Shown: positions 7,093 to 47,657 of the stretch, piece by piece | Layout of the letters: each line of letters begins with the position of its first letter | Numbering within the stretch: position 1 is the stretch's first letter | NCBI RefSeq assembly: GCF_004360145.1 | Contig: NZ_ML178712.1 | Location: 414,179-478,178, forward strand | Reading direction: 5' to 3' | DNA from: Aliiroseovarius marinus | GTDB lineage: Bacteria > Pseudomonadota > Alphaproteobacteria > Rhodobacterales > Rhodobacteraceae | DNA length: 64,000 nucleotides | Notes under the pieces: generated by a model | What the model was told of the DNA's origin: nothing | Seen by the model: the letters and a program-made list of their open reading frames with translations, nothing else | The model's database searches: none | Made by a program: the position numbers and the translations under genes

Positions 7093-8198
7093 CAGCCGAT
7101 CTGACCGCGCGGTCCTTCACCGATTTGCGCGCGGTGCAGCATCAGGTGATCAAGGATCACACAGGCGGCCATCGCCTCGCCCACCGGAACAGCGCGGATG
7201 CCGACACAGGGGTCATGACGGCCCTTGGTGATCACCTCAATCGGCTCGCCCGATTTGGTGATCGACTTGCGCGGTGTCAGGATCGAGCTGGTTGGCTTCA
7301 CAGCAAACCGCACCACAATATCCTGCCCGGTCGAGATGCCGCCCAGAATACCACCCGCGTGGTTCGAGGCATAAACTGGCCCGTCTGGACCCATCGAGAT
7401 CTCGTCCGCATTCGCCGTCCCGCGCAGGCCGGCAGCGGCCATACCCTCGCCAATCTCGACACCCTTCACGGCGTTGATCGACATCATCGCGGCGGCCAAA
7501 TCAGTGTCTAACTTGGCATAAACCGGCGCGCCCAGTCCGGCAGGGGCGCCGCGCACCACGACCTCGACCGCGGCGCCGACGCTGTCATTTTCCTTCACGC
7601 GCAGGAACTGCAGATAGTCTTCCCATTCCTGCACAGCGCTCGCATCGGGCAGCCAGAACGGGTTGTTGTCGATGGCGTCCCAATCGAACTTCGAGCGATC
7701 AAGATGCTTTTCGCCCATCTGGGTCATGTAGCCCTTGATCTCAAGCCCCGGCACCAGCGCCTTCAGCGCCTCGCGGGCAACGCCGCCGGCAGCCACGCGT
7801 GCAGCCGTTTCGCGGGCCGAGGAGCGTCCACCGCCACGCGGGTCGCGGATCCCGTATTTCTGCCAATAGGTGATGTCAGCGTGACCCGGACGGAACGTCT
7901 TTTCGATCTCGCCATAGTCTTTGGATCGTTGGTCGGTGTTCTCGATCATCAGCTGGATCGGCGTGCCGGTGGTCTGCCCTTCATAAACACCCGACAGAAT
8001 GCGCACCTGATCGGGCTCGTTGCGGGCCGTGGTGTTCTTGTTCTGACCCGGACGGCGTTTGTCCAGCCAGACTTGCAGCATCTCAGCCTCAAGCGGCACA
8101 CCGGGGGGGCACCCGTCGACGGTCGCGCCCAAAGCAGGCCCGTGGCTTTCACCCCAAGTGGTGACACGGAAGATATGACCAAAGCTGTTCATCGACAT
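7092..8198 (-). CDS. aroC: Chorismate synthase
   Basis: 368-residue cytosolic enzyme that converts 5-enolpyruvylshikimate 3-phosphate to chorismate with reduced FMN, the last common step to aromatic amino acids. Family signatures are present: [11 protein letters not shown] near the N-terminus, [10 protein letters not shown], and [18 protein letters not shown]. The start at 8198 has GGAG upstream; a second ATG two codons on is possible. It heads a two-gene unit with the AEC transporter. Confidence 0.97.
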
Positions 8199-8264
8199 GG
8201 GCGCGCTCCTTCATTCCCAAGCGTGATAGCGAAGGGGGAAACGAAAGGGAAGCGCCCCAAGGCG

Positions 8265-9230
8265 TTAGCTTTCGCTTTGTTGCGGCCTGCGGTGTTTTGG
8301 CTTCGGCGTGGGGCCAGCGTCATAGCGCGGGTTCGGATCGCGCAGGATCGGGTTGCGGACCGAGACAGACGGGCGGCTTTCGCGCCACACGATGAACACG
8401 CCCGAGGCGATGATCACCGCGGCACCGACGCCCACCCACATGTCCGGCAGCTCGTCAAAGAACAGCGCGCCGAAGGCGGTCGCCCACAGGATCTGGCTGT
8501 ATTGCGTGGGGGCCACCACCGCGGCGGGGGCCGAACGGTAGGCGATGATGATCATCATCTGCGCAAAGACCGACATGACCCCGACGCTGGCAGCAAGGCC
8601 CAGATCCACGATCTGCATCGGCACATAGACGAAGGGCAGGATCAGCCCCATCGCCAGAATGGACGACAGCATGGGGTAGAGGATCATCACGGCGGTCCGC
8701 TCCTCTCCCCCGATCTTGCGCATGATGATGGACCCAAGCGCCGAGCAGAAGGCCGCGATCAAAGCACAGATATGCCCAAACGAGATCACGGTCACGCCGG
8801 GGCGCAGAACGATCAAAACACCGATCAGACCGACGATCACGGCTGCCCACCGCTGCCCGCGCACGGGCTCACCCAATAGCCATGCCGACATGGCGGTGAT
8901 CAGAAGGGGTGTGGCGAAGAGAAGGGCATAGACCTCGGCCAGCGGCAGCACGGTGAAGGCGTAGAACGCCGCCGACATCGCGATCACCGTGGTCGTCGAC
9001 CGGATCAGGATCAGCCACGGGTGATGCGGGCGGAAATTGTCCACCTGACGGTCCGCCAGCATCATGATCGACATCGGCACGAAGGCAAACAGCATCGCGA
9101 AGAAGATGATCTGGAACACGGCAAACTGCATGCCCAGAAGCTTGATCACCGCGTCATGGGTGGCAAACAGCCCAAAGGCTGCAAAGGCAAAGCCAAGCCC
9201 GCGCAGGGGGGATTGAGATGTGTCCGACAT
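8265..9230 (-). CDS. DMT-superfamily (EamA) transporter
   Basis: 321-residue membrane protein with ten predicted helices in two EamA repeats (FGLFATHDAVIKLLG at the N-terminus, FGALFFDELPDMWVGVGAAVII in the second). It resembles exporters of amino acids, S-adenosylmethionine or nucleoside-like compounds. A hydrophilic 30-residue C-terminal tail rich in Pro, Lys and Arg probably lies in the cytosol. It is divergent from the thiamine transport operon; the gap contains the promoters of both. Confidence 0.85.
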   Translation of the reverse strand: MSDTSQSPLRGLGFAFAAFGLFATHDAVIKLLGMQFAVFQIIFFAMLFAFVPMSIMMLADRQVDNFRPHHPWLILIRSTTTVIAMSAAFYAFTVLPLAEVYALLFATPLLITAMSAWLLGEPVRGQRWAAVIVGLIGVLIVLRPGVTVISFGHICALIAAFCSALGSIIMRKIGGEERTAVMILYPMLSSILAMGLILPFVYVPMQIVDLGLAASVGVMSVFAQMMIIIAYRSAPAAVVAPTQYSQILWATAFGALFFDELPDMWVGVGAAVIIASGVFIVWRESRPSVSVRNPILRDPNPRYDAGPTPKPKHRRPQQSES

Positions 9231-41039: not shown

Positions 41040-41405
41040 ATGACCAAAGAAGACGACAAGGTATTTTCCCGGCGCAAGGCGCTGACCCGCATTGGTGGGC
41101 TGGCACTGGCCGCCTATTCGGTACCCGCACTGACCACGCTGTCGGCTGCACACGCATCGTCGGCCCCGTCGCCGGCAAGCGCTCCGTCGCCCGCTAGCGC
41201 CCCGTCGCCGGCAAGCGCCCCGTCGCCCGCCAGCGGCCCGTCGGATTCCAGCGGACCTTCTGACGCAAGCGGCCCGTCCGAGGCAAGCGCACCGTCGGAA
41301 GCCAGCGGCCCCAGCGGCCCCCGCGTTGTGACGGCTGAAGAATGCGAAAGCGGCGGTGGCACCGTGGTCACCCGCGACGACGGTGTTAAAGTCTGCCGTC
41401 AGTAA
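41040..41405 (+). CDS. Small Tat-exported Ser/Ala/Pro-repeat protein A
   Basis: 121 residues. The leader (SRRKALTRIGGLALAAYSVP, then ALTTLSAAHA) has twin arginines. Residues about 40-95 are nine or so hexapeptides of form S-(A/G)-P-S-(P/D/E)-(A/S). A short C-terminal tail holds two cysteines (EECESGGG and KVCRQ). AAAGGA precedes the ATG. Its leader and first repeats are nearly those of protein B at 42767. It is the first gene of the five-gene cluster; no known family. Confidence 0.8.
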   Translation: MTKEDDKVFSRRKALTRIGGLALAAYSVPALTTLSAAHASSAPSPASAPSPASAPSPASAPSPASGPSDSSGPSDASGPSEASAPSEASGPSGPRVVTAEECESGGGTVVTRDDGVKVCRQ

Positions 41406-41435
41406 AGTGATCGTGGGTATCCCCACCTGATCTAC

Positions 41436-41466
41436 GACCTGCCCGCACCTCAATTGCGGGCAGGTC
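41436..41466 (+). terminator. Perfect hairpin between repeat protein A and the kinase gene
   Basis: A 12-bp perfect stem (41436-41447 with 41455-41466) and a 7-base loop CCTCAAT, 30 bp after the stop of protein A. No T tract follows. It can act as a partial terminator or RNA stabiliser, giving more of protein A than of downstream products. Confidence 0.6.
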
Positions 41467-41501
41467 GGATTGCGTTGACGCGCAGGGGGAAATTCGCTGG
41501 A

Positions 41502-42770
41502 ATGAACAGCGAGAAGTGGGAGCGGAACGTGGTGGAACCGCAATATGTGCAGCTTGATGGATTGAAGCATCCCGTCGCGTTGGAAAACGCGGACGAGATC
41601 GGGGCGATGCTGCCCGCCATCCTGTCTGCCTGGCCGCACCGCATTCTGACGACACCGCCGTCGGAACCGCCCTTCATAACTGTCAGCCCCGCCGGACCAG
41701 ACCGCTGGAACGTGCTCCATGCGGACCAGCCCGACGCACCCCGGATTTGGGATGGGGTCAACACGGTCTGCGATATCGTCGCCGAAATGGCGTGGGAACG
41801 CCTGCGCTCGGATCCCGACCTTTTGTGCCTGCACGCTGCAGCCATCGACTTTAACGGGCGTCTTGTGGTGATGCCTAACGCCAGACGCGCCGGCAAAAGC
41901 ACCTTAGCGATTGCCTTGGCGCGTCTGGGTAGACCCTTGTATTCTGACGATTTTCTGCCGGTCCGCGTGGACGCCGAAGCCCGGACCTGTGCGGGCATCG
42001 CGAACGGCATTCAGCCGCGGCTGCGTCTGCCCCTGCCCGAAGGCTTCAGCGACGCCTTCCATGCCGAGGTCGCGCAAGATCCCGGCCCATCGAACCGCCA
42101 GTACAAGTACCTGTCCAACGCGCCCGTCGCCCCGTGGGGCGAGACGCTGCCCTTGGGTGCAATGGTCATGCTCGAGCGCAGCGATGATCCACAGCCGCCA
42201 CACCTGAGCGTGATGGCTCGCGAAGACGCCCTGGCCAGCCTGATCACGCAGAACTTCGCCCGCACGCGCCATGCCGGGGCGATCCTGCGCTCGATCGACC
42301 TTCTGTCGCGCAATCTGCCGATCTATCGGCTGACCTATCATAGCGCTGAAGAGGCCGCCGAATACCTGTCGGCCCATCCCGACATGACCGCCCTTCCAGC
42401 CGCGCAACTGACCGAGTTTACGCAGGATGACAGACAAGCGCCACTCGACCAGCTTGGCCGCCCTGCCCCCAAATTCGCCAAAGATCTCTGCTATACGCAA
42501 GCCCAAGGCGTGACCGAAAGCGTGGTGGGGGACGAGGCGTTTCTGGCCGATGGATCCGGGATCGGCATCTTCCGCCTGAACCCGGTGTCGGCCGCGATCT
42601 GGAACCTGCTGGAGGAACCGACCGATCTGGGCGAAGTCGTCGAGATCCTATCCGAGGCGTTCCCCGACGTGCCCGTCGATCAGATCAGCACGGACAGCGA
42701 AAACCTGATGCGCAGCCTGACCCGCGCACGTTTGATTACCCCCGCATCCCAAAACATGGCCGCGCAATGA
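41502..42770 (+). CDS. HPr-kinase-like ATPase fused to a C-terminal PqqD domain
   Basis: 422 residues. Residues about 105-170 carry an HPr-kinase-like nucleotide site: LHAAAIDFNGRLVVMPNARR, then AGKSTLA, then SDD. The P-loop has Asn where the first glycine is usual (NARRAGKST). Residues about 335-415 match a PqqD fold (LNPVSAAIWNLLEEPTDLGEVVEIL, then a terminal HTH-like segment), the peptide-leader-binding module of RiPP pathways. ATG 41502 is chosen; a TTG at 41454 lies inside the hairpin loop, and a GTG at 41529 is possible. Its stop overlaps protein B by ATGA. Confidence 0.8.
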   Translation: MNSEKWERNVVEPQYVQLDGLKHPVALENADEIGAMLPAILSAWPHRILTTPPSEPPFITVSPAGPDRWNVLHADQPDAPRIWDGVNTVCDIVAEMAWERLRSDPDLLCLHAAAIDFNGRLVVMPNARRAGKSTLAIALARLGRPLYSDDFLPVRVDAEARTCAGIANGIQPRLRLPLPEGFSDAFHAEVAQDPGPSNRQYKYLSNAPVAPWGETLPLGAMVMLERSDDPQPPHLSVMAREDALASLITQNFARTRHAGAILRSIDLLSRNLPIYRLTYHSAEEAAEYLSAHPDMTALPAAQLTEFTQDDRQAPLDQLGRPAPKFAKDLCYTQAQGVTESVVGDEAFLADGSGIGIFRLNPVSAAIWNLLEEPTDLGEVVEILSEAFPDVPVDQISTDSENLMRSLTRARLITPASQNMAAQ

Positions 42771-43339
42771 GTGATGGCAAGCGCATATCACGCCGTGCCG
42801 CGCTGATCCGGCTGGGTCTGGGGGCTGCCAGTGCCTATATGGCGCCCAGCATGGTTGGGCTCAGCCAGGCGCGGGCGTCTTCCAGCGCGCCCTCCCCAGC
42901 CTCGGCGCCCAGCCCTGCCTCGGCCCCGTCCCCGGCCAGCCCTGCATCGCCGCCGTCACCCCCGTCGCCAGCCAGTGCGCCCAGCGCGGCAAGCGAGCCA
43001 TCCGGACCAAGCAGCCCGAACGGCTCGGCTCCGACCAGCCCCAGCGGACCTAGCGGGCCGGGCACCTGCAGAAGTTCGTCGATTTCGGGGAACGGTCAGA
43101 TTTCGCGCCAAGACTACCAACGCGCGCAACGTGCGATTGCGCGCGGCGAGGCACGGCCACTGCAAGAAGTCTTGAAGAACGTGCAATCGAAGCAGCCCGG
43201 AAAGTTGCTGCAAGTCGGATTCTCTGACAAAGGTAACCGTGCAAGCTTTCGAGTGCTGATCGTTGATCGGAGCGGCGCGGTCGTCTCGGTCTCGGTTGAT
43301 GCGGGCTCGGGACGAATTACAAATATGCGGAAGTGCTAG
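42767..43339 (+). CDS. Tat-exported Ser/Ala/Pro-repeat protein B with PepSY-like domain
   Basis: 190 residues. The leader SRRAALIRLGLGAASAYMAP closely parallels protein A. Residues about 38-105 are SAP/SPAS repeats grading into SGPSGP. Then comes a compact domain (QRAIARGEARPLQEVLKNVQ, then FRVLIVDRSGAVVSVSVDAG) of PepSY type, ending in MRKC; a second Cys is in GTCRSS. PepSY domains often inhibit proteases or accompany sensor kinases. Its stop directly abuts the response regulator start. Confidence 0.82.
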   Translation: MSDGKRISRRAALIRLGLGAASAYMAPSMVGLSQARASSSAPSPASAPSPASAPSPASPASPPSPPSPASAPSAASEPSGPSSPNGSAPTSPSGPSGPGTCRSSSISGNGQISRQDYQRAQRAIARGEARPLQEVLKNVQSKQPGKLLQVGFSDKGNRASFRVLIVDRSGAVVSVSVDAGSGRITNMRKC

Positions 43340-44005
43340 ATGCGTATCCTCATCGTGGAAGATGAACAGAAGATTGCCGAGCTGATCGCGGATGTTCTGG
43401 AAGGTGAGGGGCTGATTCCCGAGATCGCAAATGATGGCGAAGAGGGCTGGTTTCTGGGCAGCACCGAAAGCTATGCGGCCGCAATTCTTGATATCGGCCT
43501 GCCCAAGCGTGATGGCCTGTCCGTGCTGCGCGCTTGGCGGGACGAGGGGCTGGACCTGCCCGTCATCCTGCTGACCGCCCGCGCCAACTGGAACGAGCGG
43601 GTCGAAGGCATCGATGCGGGTGCGGATGATTACCTGGGCAAGCCATTCCAGATGGAAGAATTGGTCGCGCGGCTGCGCGCCCTGTTGCGCCGGTCCAGCG
43701 GGCAGAAAGCCACGATCCTAGAGGCCGGGTCGCTGCGGGTCGATCTGCGGCAGATGCGCGTTTCAGTCGACGGGCGGCCGTTGAAAGTCACGCCTCTGGA
43801 ATATCGCCTGCTGAACTATCTGCTGCACCATCGCGGCGAGGTGGTGACACAGGAAGAGCTGGTCGAGAACATCTATTACCGAGATCAGGAACCTGACAGC
43901 AACGCGGTCGAGGTTCTGGTCGGACGCCTGCGCCGCAAGATTGGCGGCGGTGTGATCGAGACACGTCGCGGGTTTGGGTACATGATCGCCGGGGACGAGA
44001 CATGA
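43340..44005 (+). CDS. OmpR-family response regulator
   Basis: 221 residues: a receiver domain (LIVEDE, phospho-acceptor Asp in ILDIGLPKRDG, Lys in GKPFQ) then a winged-helix DNA-binding domain (LTPLEYRLLNYLL form, ending ETRRGFGYMI). It resembles PhoP/FeuP-type regulators. It is translated immediately after protein B and overlaps the kinase gene by ATGA, so the pair senses a signal probably connected to the repeat proteins. Confidence 0.93.
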   Translation: MRILIVEDEQKIAELIADVLEGEGLIPEIANDGEEGWFLGSTESYAAAILDIGLPKRDGLSVLRAWRDEGLDLPVILLTARANWNERVEGIDAGADDYLGKPFQMEELVARLRALLRRSSGQKATILEAGSLRVDLRQMRVSVDGRPLKVTPLEYRLLNYLLHHRGEVVTQEELVENIYYRDQEPDSNAVEVLVGRLRRKIGGGVIETRRGFGYMIAGDET

Positions 44006-45357
44006 AGCTGTCCCTCAGCCTTCGCCTGTTGTTGGCAGCCGCCATGACAACGGCGATTGCCTTGGTGGCCACGGCCTTTGTCTTCAACTTCCTGTTCCGT
44101 CTCTATTTCGAAGACCGCGCGCGCGACGAGCTTGAGACCTATCTGATCCAACTCAGCGGGAATGTCTCGGCCACGGCCGAGGGCGCGATTGAGGTCACTC
44201 CGATTCCAGACCCGCGCTTCAATCAGGCGCTGTCCGGATATTACTGGCAGGTGCAGATCGATGACGCCGAACCGCTTCTGTCGCCATCTTTCTGGGCCGC
44301 GCCGTTGGAACTGACCCGCCCACAGGCCGCGGGCGTGATCTCTTTTACCGACCTAACAACGGGAACCGGAGACGCCGTCGCGGTCGCCAATTGGATCATC
44401 ACGATGGGCGAAGGCGAGACCCGGAAAGAGGTCTTTTTGGCAGTGGCCATCGACCGCGCGGATCTGGATATGTCGGTCGCACGGTTCACCACGAACTCGA
44501 TCTTCTGGCTGGGGGTCTTGGGCCTGTTTCTGATGATTGCCAGTTGGTTCCAAGTGCGCTTGGGGTTGAACCCGCTGCAAAAGATCCGATCCGAGATCGC
44601 CCGCGTCTCGCACACCCCAAACGGGCGGTTGTCGTCGGATTATCCCTCCGAAGTTCTGCCGCTGGTCGAAGAGGTGAACCAGCTTCTGAACGTCAATGCC
44701 GAAGCGCTGGAGCGCGCCCGCTCGCGCGCGGGGGATCTGGCACATGGGTTGAAGACGCCCCTGACAATCATGCACGGGATCGAGCGCAAGGTGCGGCGGG
44801 CTGGCCAAGACAAGCTTGCCGATGATCTGATGACGGAAATCACCAGCATTCAGCACATTGTCGAACGGGAATTGGCCTCGACCCGCGACAGCCAGCAGGC
44901 GCTTCTGAACTGCGACGCCGGTCCGATCATTGACCGCCTGCACAAGGCGCTTGGCCGCCAGCCCGGCGCCGAGCACATTCAGTGGGACATCGACCTGCCC
45001 CGCCCCCTGTACCTGCCCTTTGACGAGTACGACCTGACCGAGCTACTGGGCAACCTGCTGGACAATGCGGTGAAGTGGTCCGAAAGCCGAATTACCGTGC
45101 GCGGCGGGCAGGACGGCACGCAGGTGCTTCTCTGCGTTGAGGATGACGGCCCCGGCATCCCGGAAGACGAACGTGATGCGGTGCTGGCACGCGGGGCGCG
45201 ACTGGACCCAGAACAGCCGGGCACGGGCTTGGGGCTGAGCATTGCACAGCGCATGGCACAGGCCCATGGCTGCGCCCTGTCGCTGGATCAATCCGAATTG
45301 GGCGGCGTGAAAGTGTGTCTTGCAGCGCCCGAGGCCACGCAGGCTGATGCTCTGTGA
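44002..45357 (+). CDS. Sensor histidine kinase
   Basis: 451 residues: transmembrane helix 1 (about 9-33), a periplasmic sensor loop, helix 2 (about 160-182), HAMP, the phospho-acceptor H-box (GDLAHGLKTPLTIMHGIE), the N-box LLGNLLDNAVKWSE, and G boxes DDGPGIP and GTGLGLSIAQ. It is of the PhoQ/FeuQ-like membrane type. It is the last gene of the cluster. Confidence 0.93.
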   Translation: MKLSLSLRLLLAAAMTTAIALVATAFVFNFLFRLYFEDRARDELETYLIQLSGNVSATAEGAIEVTPIPDPRFNQALSGYYWQVQIDDAEPLLSPSFWAAPLELTRPQAAGVISFTDLTTGTGDAVAVANWIITMGEGETRKEVFLAVAIDRADLDMSVARFTTNSIFWLGVLGLFLMIASWFQVRLGLNPLQKIRSEIARVSHTPNGRLSSDYPSEVLPLVEEVNQLLNVNAEALERARSRAGDLAHGLKTPLTIMHGIERKVRRAGQDKLADDLMTEITSIQHIVERELASTRDSQQALLNCDAGPIIDRLHKALGRQPGAEHIQWDIDLPRPLYLPFDEYDLTELLGNLLDNAVKWSESRITVRGGQDGTQVLLCVEDDGPGIPEDERDAVLARGARLDPEQPGTGLGLSIAQRMAQAHGCALSLDQSELGGVKVCLAAPEATQADAL

Positions 45358-45496: not shown

Positions 45497-45883
45497 ATGT
45501 TCCTGCCCAAGACCACGAAACTGTTCGCAACACTCGTATTCTCTCAGTTCATGATTGGTGCAGCCATCGCCCATGACAGCCCCGATCACAACGGGAAGAA
45601 TGGTGGCGTGGTGCATGTGACCCAGCACAGCCATATCGAACTGGTCCGGTCAGACGACGAAATCGCGATCTATCTGTATGATCTAAATCTGGAGCCGCGC
45701 GACGCGCAGAACATCACCATCGACGCGCTGCTGGTGGATGGCACCACCCAGACCGATCTTGACCTTCAATTCACGCCCCCCAACAAGTTTGCGGCCGAGG
45801 GGATTTCGGCCCCCAGATCGGCTGCAATTGTGCTGCGACTGTTTCGCGACGGTGCGTTTTGGGACCTGACGCGCATCAAGTAA
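45497..45883 (+). CDS. Small exported protein of unknown function
   Basis: 128 residues with a signal peptide (MFLPKTTKLFATLVFSQFMI...AIA). The mature part begins HDSPDHNGKNGGVVHVTQHSH and is beta-rich (IELVRSDDEIAIYLYDLN). It resembles the small His-starting domain found with metal efflux adaptors, but I do not name a family. It may extend the preceding two-component operon (139-bp gap) or stand alone. Confidence 0.65.
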   Translation: MFLPKTTKLFATLVFSQFMIGAAIAHDSPDHNGKNGGVVHVTQHSHIELVRSDDEIAIYLYDLNLEPRDAQNITIDALLVDGTTQTDLDLQFTPPNKFAAEGISAPRSAAIVLRLFRDGAFWDLTRIK

Positions 45884-46244: not shown

Positions 46245-47657
46245 ATGGCTAAAGAACGAGGGATGAATGTGCTGGGCTTGAAGGGTGTGCCCGGCCTGTT
46301 CAAAGGGGTGCGCACATTTGCTGCTGTGATGGCTTTTGGCCTGTTCGGCGCGACCCAAGCAGATGCGCACAGTATTGACGGGATGGCAAACGTCACCAGT
46401 TCGACCACTACGGGCATTGCCGGTGACACGATTGACATCGGGTTTGACTACACGATCTGGCACGCAGGACATGCGCCACCCGCACCATGGGAAATCTATC
46501 TTGATGGCGTAACTTTGCTGGCCTCTGGCTCGGAACCGTCAGTCAATGGTACCGTCACACGGTCGGTAAACACATCTGTTGTTATTCCCGCCAACACGGC
46601 ACCCGGCGCGCACCAAATTGTTATCACGACCTATTGTGACGTTGGATCCTGTGCGACATCGCGGTTCATCAATATCAACGTCATCGACCCTGCTGGTGAA
46701 GCACAAGCACTGATCGGCACCCTGTCCGAGGCACGTGGCCGTCTGATCATCCAGAACGGTCCGAACCTGGAACGCCGCATCGGTCGTCTGAACAACCGTA
46801 GCCGCAATGTTGACGCTGCAGGCGAAGTCGCCAGCCGCGACAGCGCCGCACCCGAAGGCGAAGCTGCTGCTGGTGGCACTTTCCTGGCATCGTCCAATCC
46901 TGCTGCACGGACGTCGCCCTATGACTTCTGGATCGAAGCCGCGCATGCCAAGTTCTCGGCCGGGAACATGGACGGCGACTTCAACATCATCCACATGGGT
47001 GTTGACCGCTTGGTGAACCCTGACCTTCTGATCGGTCTGGGCCTGCAGTTCGACAACGCACGCCTCAGCGGTGCTGGCGCCGAGATCTCGGGCAACGGCT
47101 TCATGATCGGCCCGTACCTGACCAAACGCATTCAGGACAACCTGTATTTCGATGCCCGCGTGGCTTGGGGTCGGTCGTCGAATGACGTTTCGCCCTTCGG
47201 CACCTACACCGATACGGTTAACGCAGAACGCTGGCTGGCAACGGCCGCTCTGGTTGGTGACTTCCAGGTTGGCGAGCTGACCGTCCAGCCCGAAGCACGC
47301 CTGTAGTGGTTTGAAGAAACCACCGACGCCTATCGCGACAGCAACGGCATCCGCGTGGCACCTGTCACCACCTCGTTTGGTTCGTTCGAGGTCGGCCCGA
47401 CCTTCTCGCGCAGCTACAATGTTGGAAGCGGCGGGACCCTGACCGCCAACCTCAGCGCCAAATCGATCTGGACCTATGACTTCAGCAACGGTGGTGTCGC
47501 CGCGTCGACCACCCGTGGTCACTCGGGCCGCATCGAGATCGGTCTGGACTACAGCAACGATGACAACCTGCTGATCAACGGTTCGGTATTCGTTGACGGC
47601 GGTGGCCGCGACTGGGACTCGCTGGGTGTCACCGTCGGTCTGGACTACACGTTCTGA
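46245..47657 (+). pseudogene. Autotransporter-like outer-membrane protein with in-frame TAG
   Basis: One reading frame of 471 codons is interrupted only by TAG at 47304-47306 (after PEARL, before WFEETTDAYRDS). The N-terminus has a signal segment (TFAAVMAFGLFGATQADA) and a beta-rich passenger with one Cys pair. From about residue 225 a beta-barrel translocator domain runs to the terminal phenylalanine (LDYTF). The part beyond TAG stays in frame, keeps normal codon use and is needed for the last strands. Tyr (TAC/TAT) is the likely original residue. It may be a nonsense mutation, an assembly error or read-through. Confidence 0.85.

Follow-up and report, generated by a model that had tools for sequence, protein, structure and literature searches.

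In a 64,000-nucleotide stretch of the Aliiroseovarius marinus genome (contig NZ_ML178712.1, positions 414,179 to 478,178, hereafter the window), a serine-repeat protein with a leader resembling a twin-arginine translocation (Tat) signal, here called A, is encoded directly upstream of K, a kinase resembling HPr kinase (HprK) and fused to a PqqD-type recognition element of ribosomally synthesized and post-translationally modified peptides (RiPP recognition element, RRE). The core recurring unit is A + K. In the window the pair opens a five-gene operon (A, K, a second repeat protein B, a response regulator RR and a sensor histidine kinase HK), which is real: each of the five lies on the + strand where an earlier note on this DNA had placed it, and recomputing the gaps between them gave the same values (+96, –4, 0 and –4 bp). 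That note contained neither the YxxP motif described below nor the observation that the recurring unit is A + K only. A single leader segment of about 40 residues seems to be at once the site recognized by the RRE and a Tat-like signal, whereas a RiPP leader and a Tat signal are commonly regarded as different things. From sequence we give an even chance to a RiPP-like pathway in which this one segment serves both RRE recognition and export, and in which the serines of the core are phosphorylated.

The least biased figures for the co-occurrence of the two genes are the counts in genus and family. Among the 21 genomes of the genus, K, the leader (in two copies each) and HK (at E 1e-60) occur together in 11, and in the remaining 10 none of the three is detected at these limits (Fisher p 2.8e-6 for the association of K with the leader); in this genus a genome has the cassette whole or not at all. 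In the family sample of 295 genomes K is matched in 34, strongly in 23 (E of 1e-20 or lower) and weakly in 11 (E of 3e-8 or higher), and the leader profile is matched in 24, namely in all 23 genomes with a strong K, in none of the 11 with a weak one and in one more, which is 64% complete and whose contig breaks off within a kinase fragment just past the leader gene. Because K and the leader go together without exception in the genus, and in the family sample wherever K is matched strongly and in full, the operon is more than a chance arrangement. It could be argued that the neighbours are nonetheless unrelated and that K acts on something else, as HprK does on HPr, given that ten weak HprK-like loci (L060–L069) have no leader gene, so that the HprK-like fold as such does not require a leader; in view of the co-occurrence in genus and family, and of a gene order conserved across families, this explanation is scarcely credible.

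In wider searches K was matched in 63 of 385 genomes of the class and in 26 of 398 of the phylum, and the A + K pair recurs in part of these matches. When 103 K loci (de-duplicated using a hand list of 12 ids) are ranked by kinase score, each of the top 52 has a leader gene upstream (52/52), as do four of the lower 51, and in one more (L123) it lies downstream of the best kinase, which makes 56/103 loci with an upstream leader gene. Genes in the order kinase then PqqD have an upstream leader gene in 43/43 cases, all within the 56. The 52-member group spans 11 families, ten of the own class and one outside (13 with L123, L131, L132 and L135 included), and its kinases form one group in a quick tree with a support of 92 in the Shimodaira–Hasegawa-like approximate likelihood ratio test (SH-aLRT), under the 95 mark. 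On the kinase tree, which excluded 14 rows under 170 aa (the leader-bearing L058 among them) and scored L123 as leader-bearing although its leader gene sits on the other side, the presence of the leader takes 3 changes vs 26.9 in shuffles. Kinase and PqqD are separate neighbouring genes in many class loci, and four leader-linked loci (L115, L118, L120, L121) have no adjacent PqqD gene. As to sampling, the class loci come from stretches of 37 of the 62 other matching genomes, taken mostly with the best scores first, and a PqqD-only match (G603, 6.1e-22) was left out though weaker ones were included; G336, G536 and G651, of the remaining 25 class genomes, were added later via the phylum search, whose loci have flanks of 1.5 kb only. 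Secondary matches within genomes already sampled are mostly outside the locus set. A plasmid collection yielded six matching records, each annotated ‘PqqD family protein’; in two of the six the leader gene was also looked at, and it is annotated ‘hypothetical protein’ on the Shinella plasmid and unannotated on the Paracoccus plasmid. To date, no published account of this cassette has been found in the open-access literature, a scope outside which most subscription journals fall.

Protein A (121 aa; 41040–41405, +) consists of a Tat-like leader, a core of (SAPSPA)/(SGPS) repeats rich in Ser, Ala and Pro (41163–41325) and a short C-terminal tail with two Cys. Its leader, residues 1–39 (41040–41156), runs from an SRR motif to an AHA cleavage-like site, read by eye, and includes YSVPAL (41115–41132), a YxxPxL motif that is the predicted RRE-binding site. 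Protein B (190 aa; 42767–43339, +) has an A-type leader with YMAPSM (42836–42853), a YxxPxM motif, followed by Ser/Ala/Pro repeats, and the two leaders are 62% identical in a three-row alignment. Four residues are invariant across 40 aligned leaders, the two Arg and the Tyr and Pro of YxxP. The motif is present in 74/75 distinct leaders, a count that is partly a matter of construction, since the hidden Markov model (HMM) of the leader was built from 27 leaders that all have YxxP, some chosen by an A[YF] filter. The spacing from the twin arginines to Y is 13 residues in 71/74 leaders (L109, scored as 17, is at 13 from its second RR), and YxxPx is followed by L, M, V, F or I in 70/72. By comparison, YxxP occurs in 0/38 control RR-bearing open reading frames (ORFs), about 9 of which look like chance frames, and in 0/5 more; the 38 were drawn from 43 loci, after two loci with no RR ORF and three repeats had been set aside. 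The second leader match of L118, which has no YxxP, appears to be frame-broken. A leader-like protein that is not near K (L253, 2980–3429) has Y..T in place of Y..P and a (SSGG)n core.

The motif is the one known from RREs of other peptides. Lasso RREs bind YxxPx[L/V/I/F/A], and YxxP is required for binding by LppB, of the linear polyphosphorylated peptides (LPPs) of Bacillota (PMC13381572). The PqqD/RRE domain of K (residues 354–412; 42561–42737) is matched by PF05402 at E 1.6e-12 (48 bits, cut-off 23.4), and the solved chain closest to it is the lasso RRE TbiB1 (E 3.1e-7). D70 of LppB holds the Tyr of the motif, N33 holds the kink at its Pro, and hardly any complex is left with N33A (PMC13381572). 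The equivalents in K are N360 and D398, a mapping that is firm because the numbering of the matched chain minus 18 reproduces the named LppB contact residues. Among 53 leader-linked RRE domains the D70 place is D in 51, and the N33 place is N in 42 and D in 10. The proposal of the earlier note that the PqqD part recognizes the shared leader is thus well supported at the level of sequence, by YxxP in the leaders and LppB-type binding residues in the RRE.

K itself (422 aa; 41502–42770, +) was described in the earlier note as an HPr-kinase-like/PqqD fusion, and of the two parts the PqqD domain is clear and the HprK likeness is found under all NCBIfam cut-offs, the best match being TIGR04352 (HprK-related kinase A) with 39.5 bits vs a cut-off of 200. 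No hpr-ser model is among the 8 NCBIfam families listed for K (P0002) at E up to 1, and a family profile of K matches the HprK chain 3tqf at 2.9e-5. On these sequence profiles K is probably an HprK-like kinase. The stretch from 41832 to 41951 holds the predicted catalytic residues, H111, AGKS (130–133) and D149 D150, and of 56 leader-linked kinases 55 keep H111, 55 K132 and all 56 both D149 and D150; the one exception is L058, whose gene is split over two frames. His-Lys-Asp-Asp is the catalytic motif of lasso kinases, as established by mutation (PMC9266682). The exact start of K is uncertain, because the earliest possible start in the named relatives L032, L034 and L035 corresponds to the window’s GTG at 41529, which may be the true one.

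The YxxP motif is placed inside the hydrophobic region of the Tat-like signal. A and B may serve as the precursors in a RiPP-like pathway, where K, through its PqqD/RRE domain, would bind YxxPx[L/M] inside the hydrophobic part of the signal, and the tethered HprK-like domain would transfer phosphate to the serines of the (S-x-x)n core. While bound, the signal would be hidden from the Tat translocon, so that export would wait for modification; Tat export and removal of the leader after AxA would come next, as the signal-like features suggest. More broadly, and more tentatively, A and K could stand for an undescribed and widespread class of exported phosphoproteins, in which an RRE-kinase reads the YxxP of a Tat signal, phosphorylates serines at every third residue and then frees the protein for export, with S8 peptidases tagged too, a possibility that we place somewhat short of an even chance. 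The position of the motif would also suit K as a Tat proofreading chaperone, with the RRE masking the signal, the kinase-like domain acting as a nucleotide clamp and the cargo left unmodified, and the same leader is found on S8 peptidases, a cargo that needs no common modification site. Against such a role stand the retention of the catalytic His, Lys and both Asp in 55–56 of 56 kinases and the Ser-rich stretch that S8 proteins too have behind the leader, and we regard it as distinctly unlikely. With one segment seemingly in both roles, the way in which export is delayed until modification becomes testable, a question that the authors of a survey of MNIO enzymes and bufferins raise for Sec signals (PMC12452194). 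The pathway would also mean that marine and other Pseudomonadota export densely phosphorylated serine-repeat proteins to their surface or periplasm, and the RRE-kinase fusion might serve to phosphorylate tagged proteins in laboratory strains.

The repeats of A are tandem arrays, and the make-up of the core varies among loci (SAPSPA, AAS, GGS, RPSRPT, SRPSY). Ser is found in 75/75 cores, at a median of 21%, and its arrangement is periodic: the frequency of Ser/Thr is 0.64 at +3 and 0.59 at +6 from a given one, vs 0.21–0.26 at the other spacings up to 7, and the preference for spacing 3 is seen in 62/70 cores having at least six Ser/Thr. Both Ser codon families are used in 67/75 cores, which speaks for selection on the serine residue. 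The suggestion of the earlier note that K phosphorylates the repeat serines before Tat export is consistent with these patterns. It may be, instead, that the target of K is a single serine, at the beginning or the end of the core for instance, which might be phosphorylated repeatedly, and that the repeats are a spacer or a surface polymer. LppK puts several phosphates on one serine, core S3 (PMC13381572), the target of lasso kinases is the last serine (PMC9266682), many cores here start with S shortly after AxA, and some have very few serines. Against it, 62/70 cores favour Ser/Thr at every third residue with differing neighbours, and 67/75 use both Ser codon families, for which a mere spacer would have no need; this explanation is to be kept in mind as an unlikely one.

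Several observations weigh against a leader-guided phosphorylation of A by K. The sequences are related, so the counts are not independent. Three reverse-order fusions (L167, L169, L171), with the PqqD-like part first and the HprK-like part last (PqqD scores of 21.3, 22.3 and 28.8 bits; cut-off 23.4), have no leader gene in their 1.5-kb flanks, nor was one found for many split kinase–PqqD pairs in another part of the tree (L124–L130 and others); at 14 leader-less kinase loci, the only candidate YxxP precursors nearby were ORFs that look like chance. Within the domains, 19 leader-less RREs keep D at the D70 place in 19/19, with D in 12 and N in 6 at the N33 place, and the LppB pocket residue V63 is replaced by P in the window. 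Leaders of other kinds could be missed, since the HMM was trained on YxxP leaders, and A and B are not among the own-genome matches to the Tat models PF10518 (13 at E 0.1) and TIGR01409 (8 at E 0.01). The scores of K are far under the cut-offs for HprK as well as for HprK-related kinases, and its P-loop is degenerate (NARRAGKS in the window). Finally, 8/70 cores have no spacing-3 preference, some cores have one or two serines only (L118, L131, L116, L123), and LppK modifies a single serine, not repeats (PMC13381572).

The leader-less fusions and split pairs indicate that, within a wider family of kinase–RRE pairs, the leader is a property of one branch, with a few cases (L123, L131, L132, L135) in a second. 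The tie that the earlier note drew between the fusion and a nearby repeat protein holds for the kinase-then-PqqD fusions, each with one upstream, and fails for the three of reverse order within the flanks available. Leader-less loci have neighbours of their own: in L128, L130, L137, L139 and L141 a recurring larger gene stands behind kinase and PqqD (HlyD in both tested, L128 and L130), L128 also has a C39-type ABC exporter, and in L125, L127, L133 and L142 the kinase gene is directly behind a two-component pair.

Among known systems, LPPs have in common with this cassette a YxxP leader, an N33/D70-type RRE, an HprK-like kinase, a variable core and the lack of a macrolactam cyclase (PMC13381572). 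They differ in their hosts (Bacillota, vs Pseudomonadota here), in a leader consensus, YxxPxVLxHQxIxFETxxS, that the leaders here do not follow in full, and in a discrete RRE gene, found here in the split relatives and replaced by a fused RRE in the window; Tat-like leaders and Ser/Thr at every third residue in most cores are features of the present cassette. No LPP-type SpI-like peptidase or MsbA-like exporter is found among the genes scanned, which are those of the operon, a small one and five on the flanks. The paeninodin-type lasso kinases PadeK, ThcoK, SyanK and PsmK have His-Lys-Asp-Asp in common with K and act on a precursor, next to an RRE and a [Y/W]xxP leader (PMC9266682), but the precursor here consists of repeats behind an export-like signal; genes for a macrolactam cyclase and a B2 protease are missing among the operon and the neighbours scanned, a statement about those genes and not the genome. 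A lasso or LPP cluster proper was rejected, as no cyclase, B2, SpI-like peptidase or transporter is among the scanned genes. For bufferins and other RiPPs modified by MNIO enzymes it has been proposed that the Sec export signal belongs to the recognition sequence and is masked until modification (PMC12452194); these differ from the present cassette in the Sec signal, the MNIO enzyme and targets that are mostly Cys, in place of a Tat-like signal and Ser (PMC12452194).

A nucleoside triphosphate (NTP) transferase beside the kinase is a further LPP feature (PMC13381572), found in some relatives here and not in the window. In L116 a nucleotidyltransferase gene (7453–8448) is convergent with a split kinase–PqqD, with homologues in the leader-linked L081, L114, L117, L119 and L122, and PF14907 was confirmed in the three tested (L116, L114, L117). 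Such genes raise the possibility that phosphate is an intermediate only, and that a second enzyme attaches a sugar or nucleotide as the final group. In pseudomycoidin, hexoses on the phosphorylated serine are associated with PsmN (PMC9266682), and a homologous gene stands beside split K in six leader-linked loci (three of them tested with Pfam); as PF14907 is missing from the window’s own genome and no such gene is in the operon, this is very unlikely.

The leader is not confined to repeat proteins. S8 peptidases with the same YxxP leader and a Ser-rich stretch are encoded in L051 (4720–6036), L036 (7219–8883), L219 (4040–5377), L220 (3955–5220) and L252 (3154–4536); PF00082 is matched in L036, L051, L220 and L252, and L219 and L220 have S8 annotations. 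K is their neighbour on the Shinella and Paracoccus plasmids and in L051 and L036; in L252 the peptidase gene lies apart from K. The YxxP leader may be a portable tag. On the two plasmids, sigma-factor genes (L219 3388–3906; L220 3277–3792) are divergent from S8-A-K, with hypothetical genes alongside. The Shinella S8 protein matches a subtilase model and, more weakly, IetS models; a defence system was considered for the window and rejected, as P0001–P0003 have no PADLOC match.

The B/two-component part of the operon, in which the earlier note supposed that the PepSY protein and the sensor kinase would report on the exported product, is not general. Of the 27 loci mapped, 10 have both B and a close downstream response regulator, 17 have neither and none has one alone, so that B, RR and HK form an optional unit added to the core. 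RR (43340–44005, +; Response_reg and Trans_reg_C) and HK (44002–45357, +) are an ordinary OmpR-type pair. The PepSY-like end that the earlier note had given to B (43160–43327) is under the cut-off in the window (PF03413, 16.8 vs 24 bits) and over it in 3/5 relatives tested. That a signal-bearing protein with a PepSY domain adjoins a sensor kinase suggests an action of B on HK; in a subset of loci, the window included, the PepSY part of exported B may thus act on the neighbouring sensor kinase, as a last step of the pathway proposed above, to judge from co-occurrence.

The nearest named relatives at the locus are Aliiroseovarius, with 84–86% identity over K. Promoter and terminator scans gave nothing above shuffled sequence. 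The flanking genes scanned encode FabMG, a LysR regulator, NhaA, a small family-less protein, an autotransporter domain and an M20 peptidase. For the NhaA antiporter, which lies upstream, a link was considered and dropped, its homologue being tagged only in the window’s own genome among the loci searched. The small protein (45497–45883) has a signal-like start and no family match, and its homologue adjoins the cassette in Aliiroseovarius L032 and L035. At 46245–47306 the autotransporter beta-domain match spans only the first part of the model, and an ORF at 47355–47657, in a different frame, may be the remainder.

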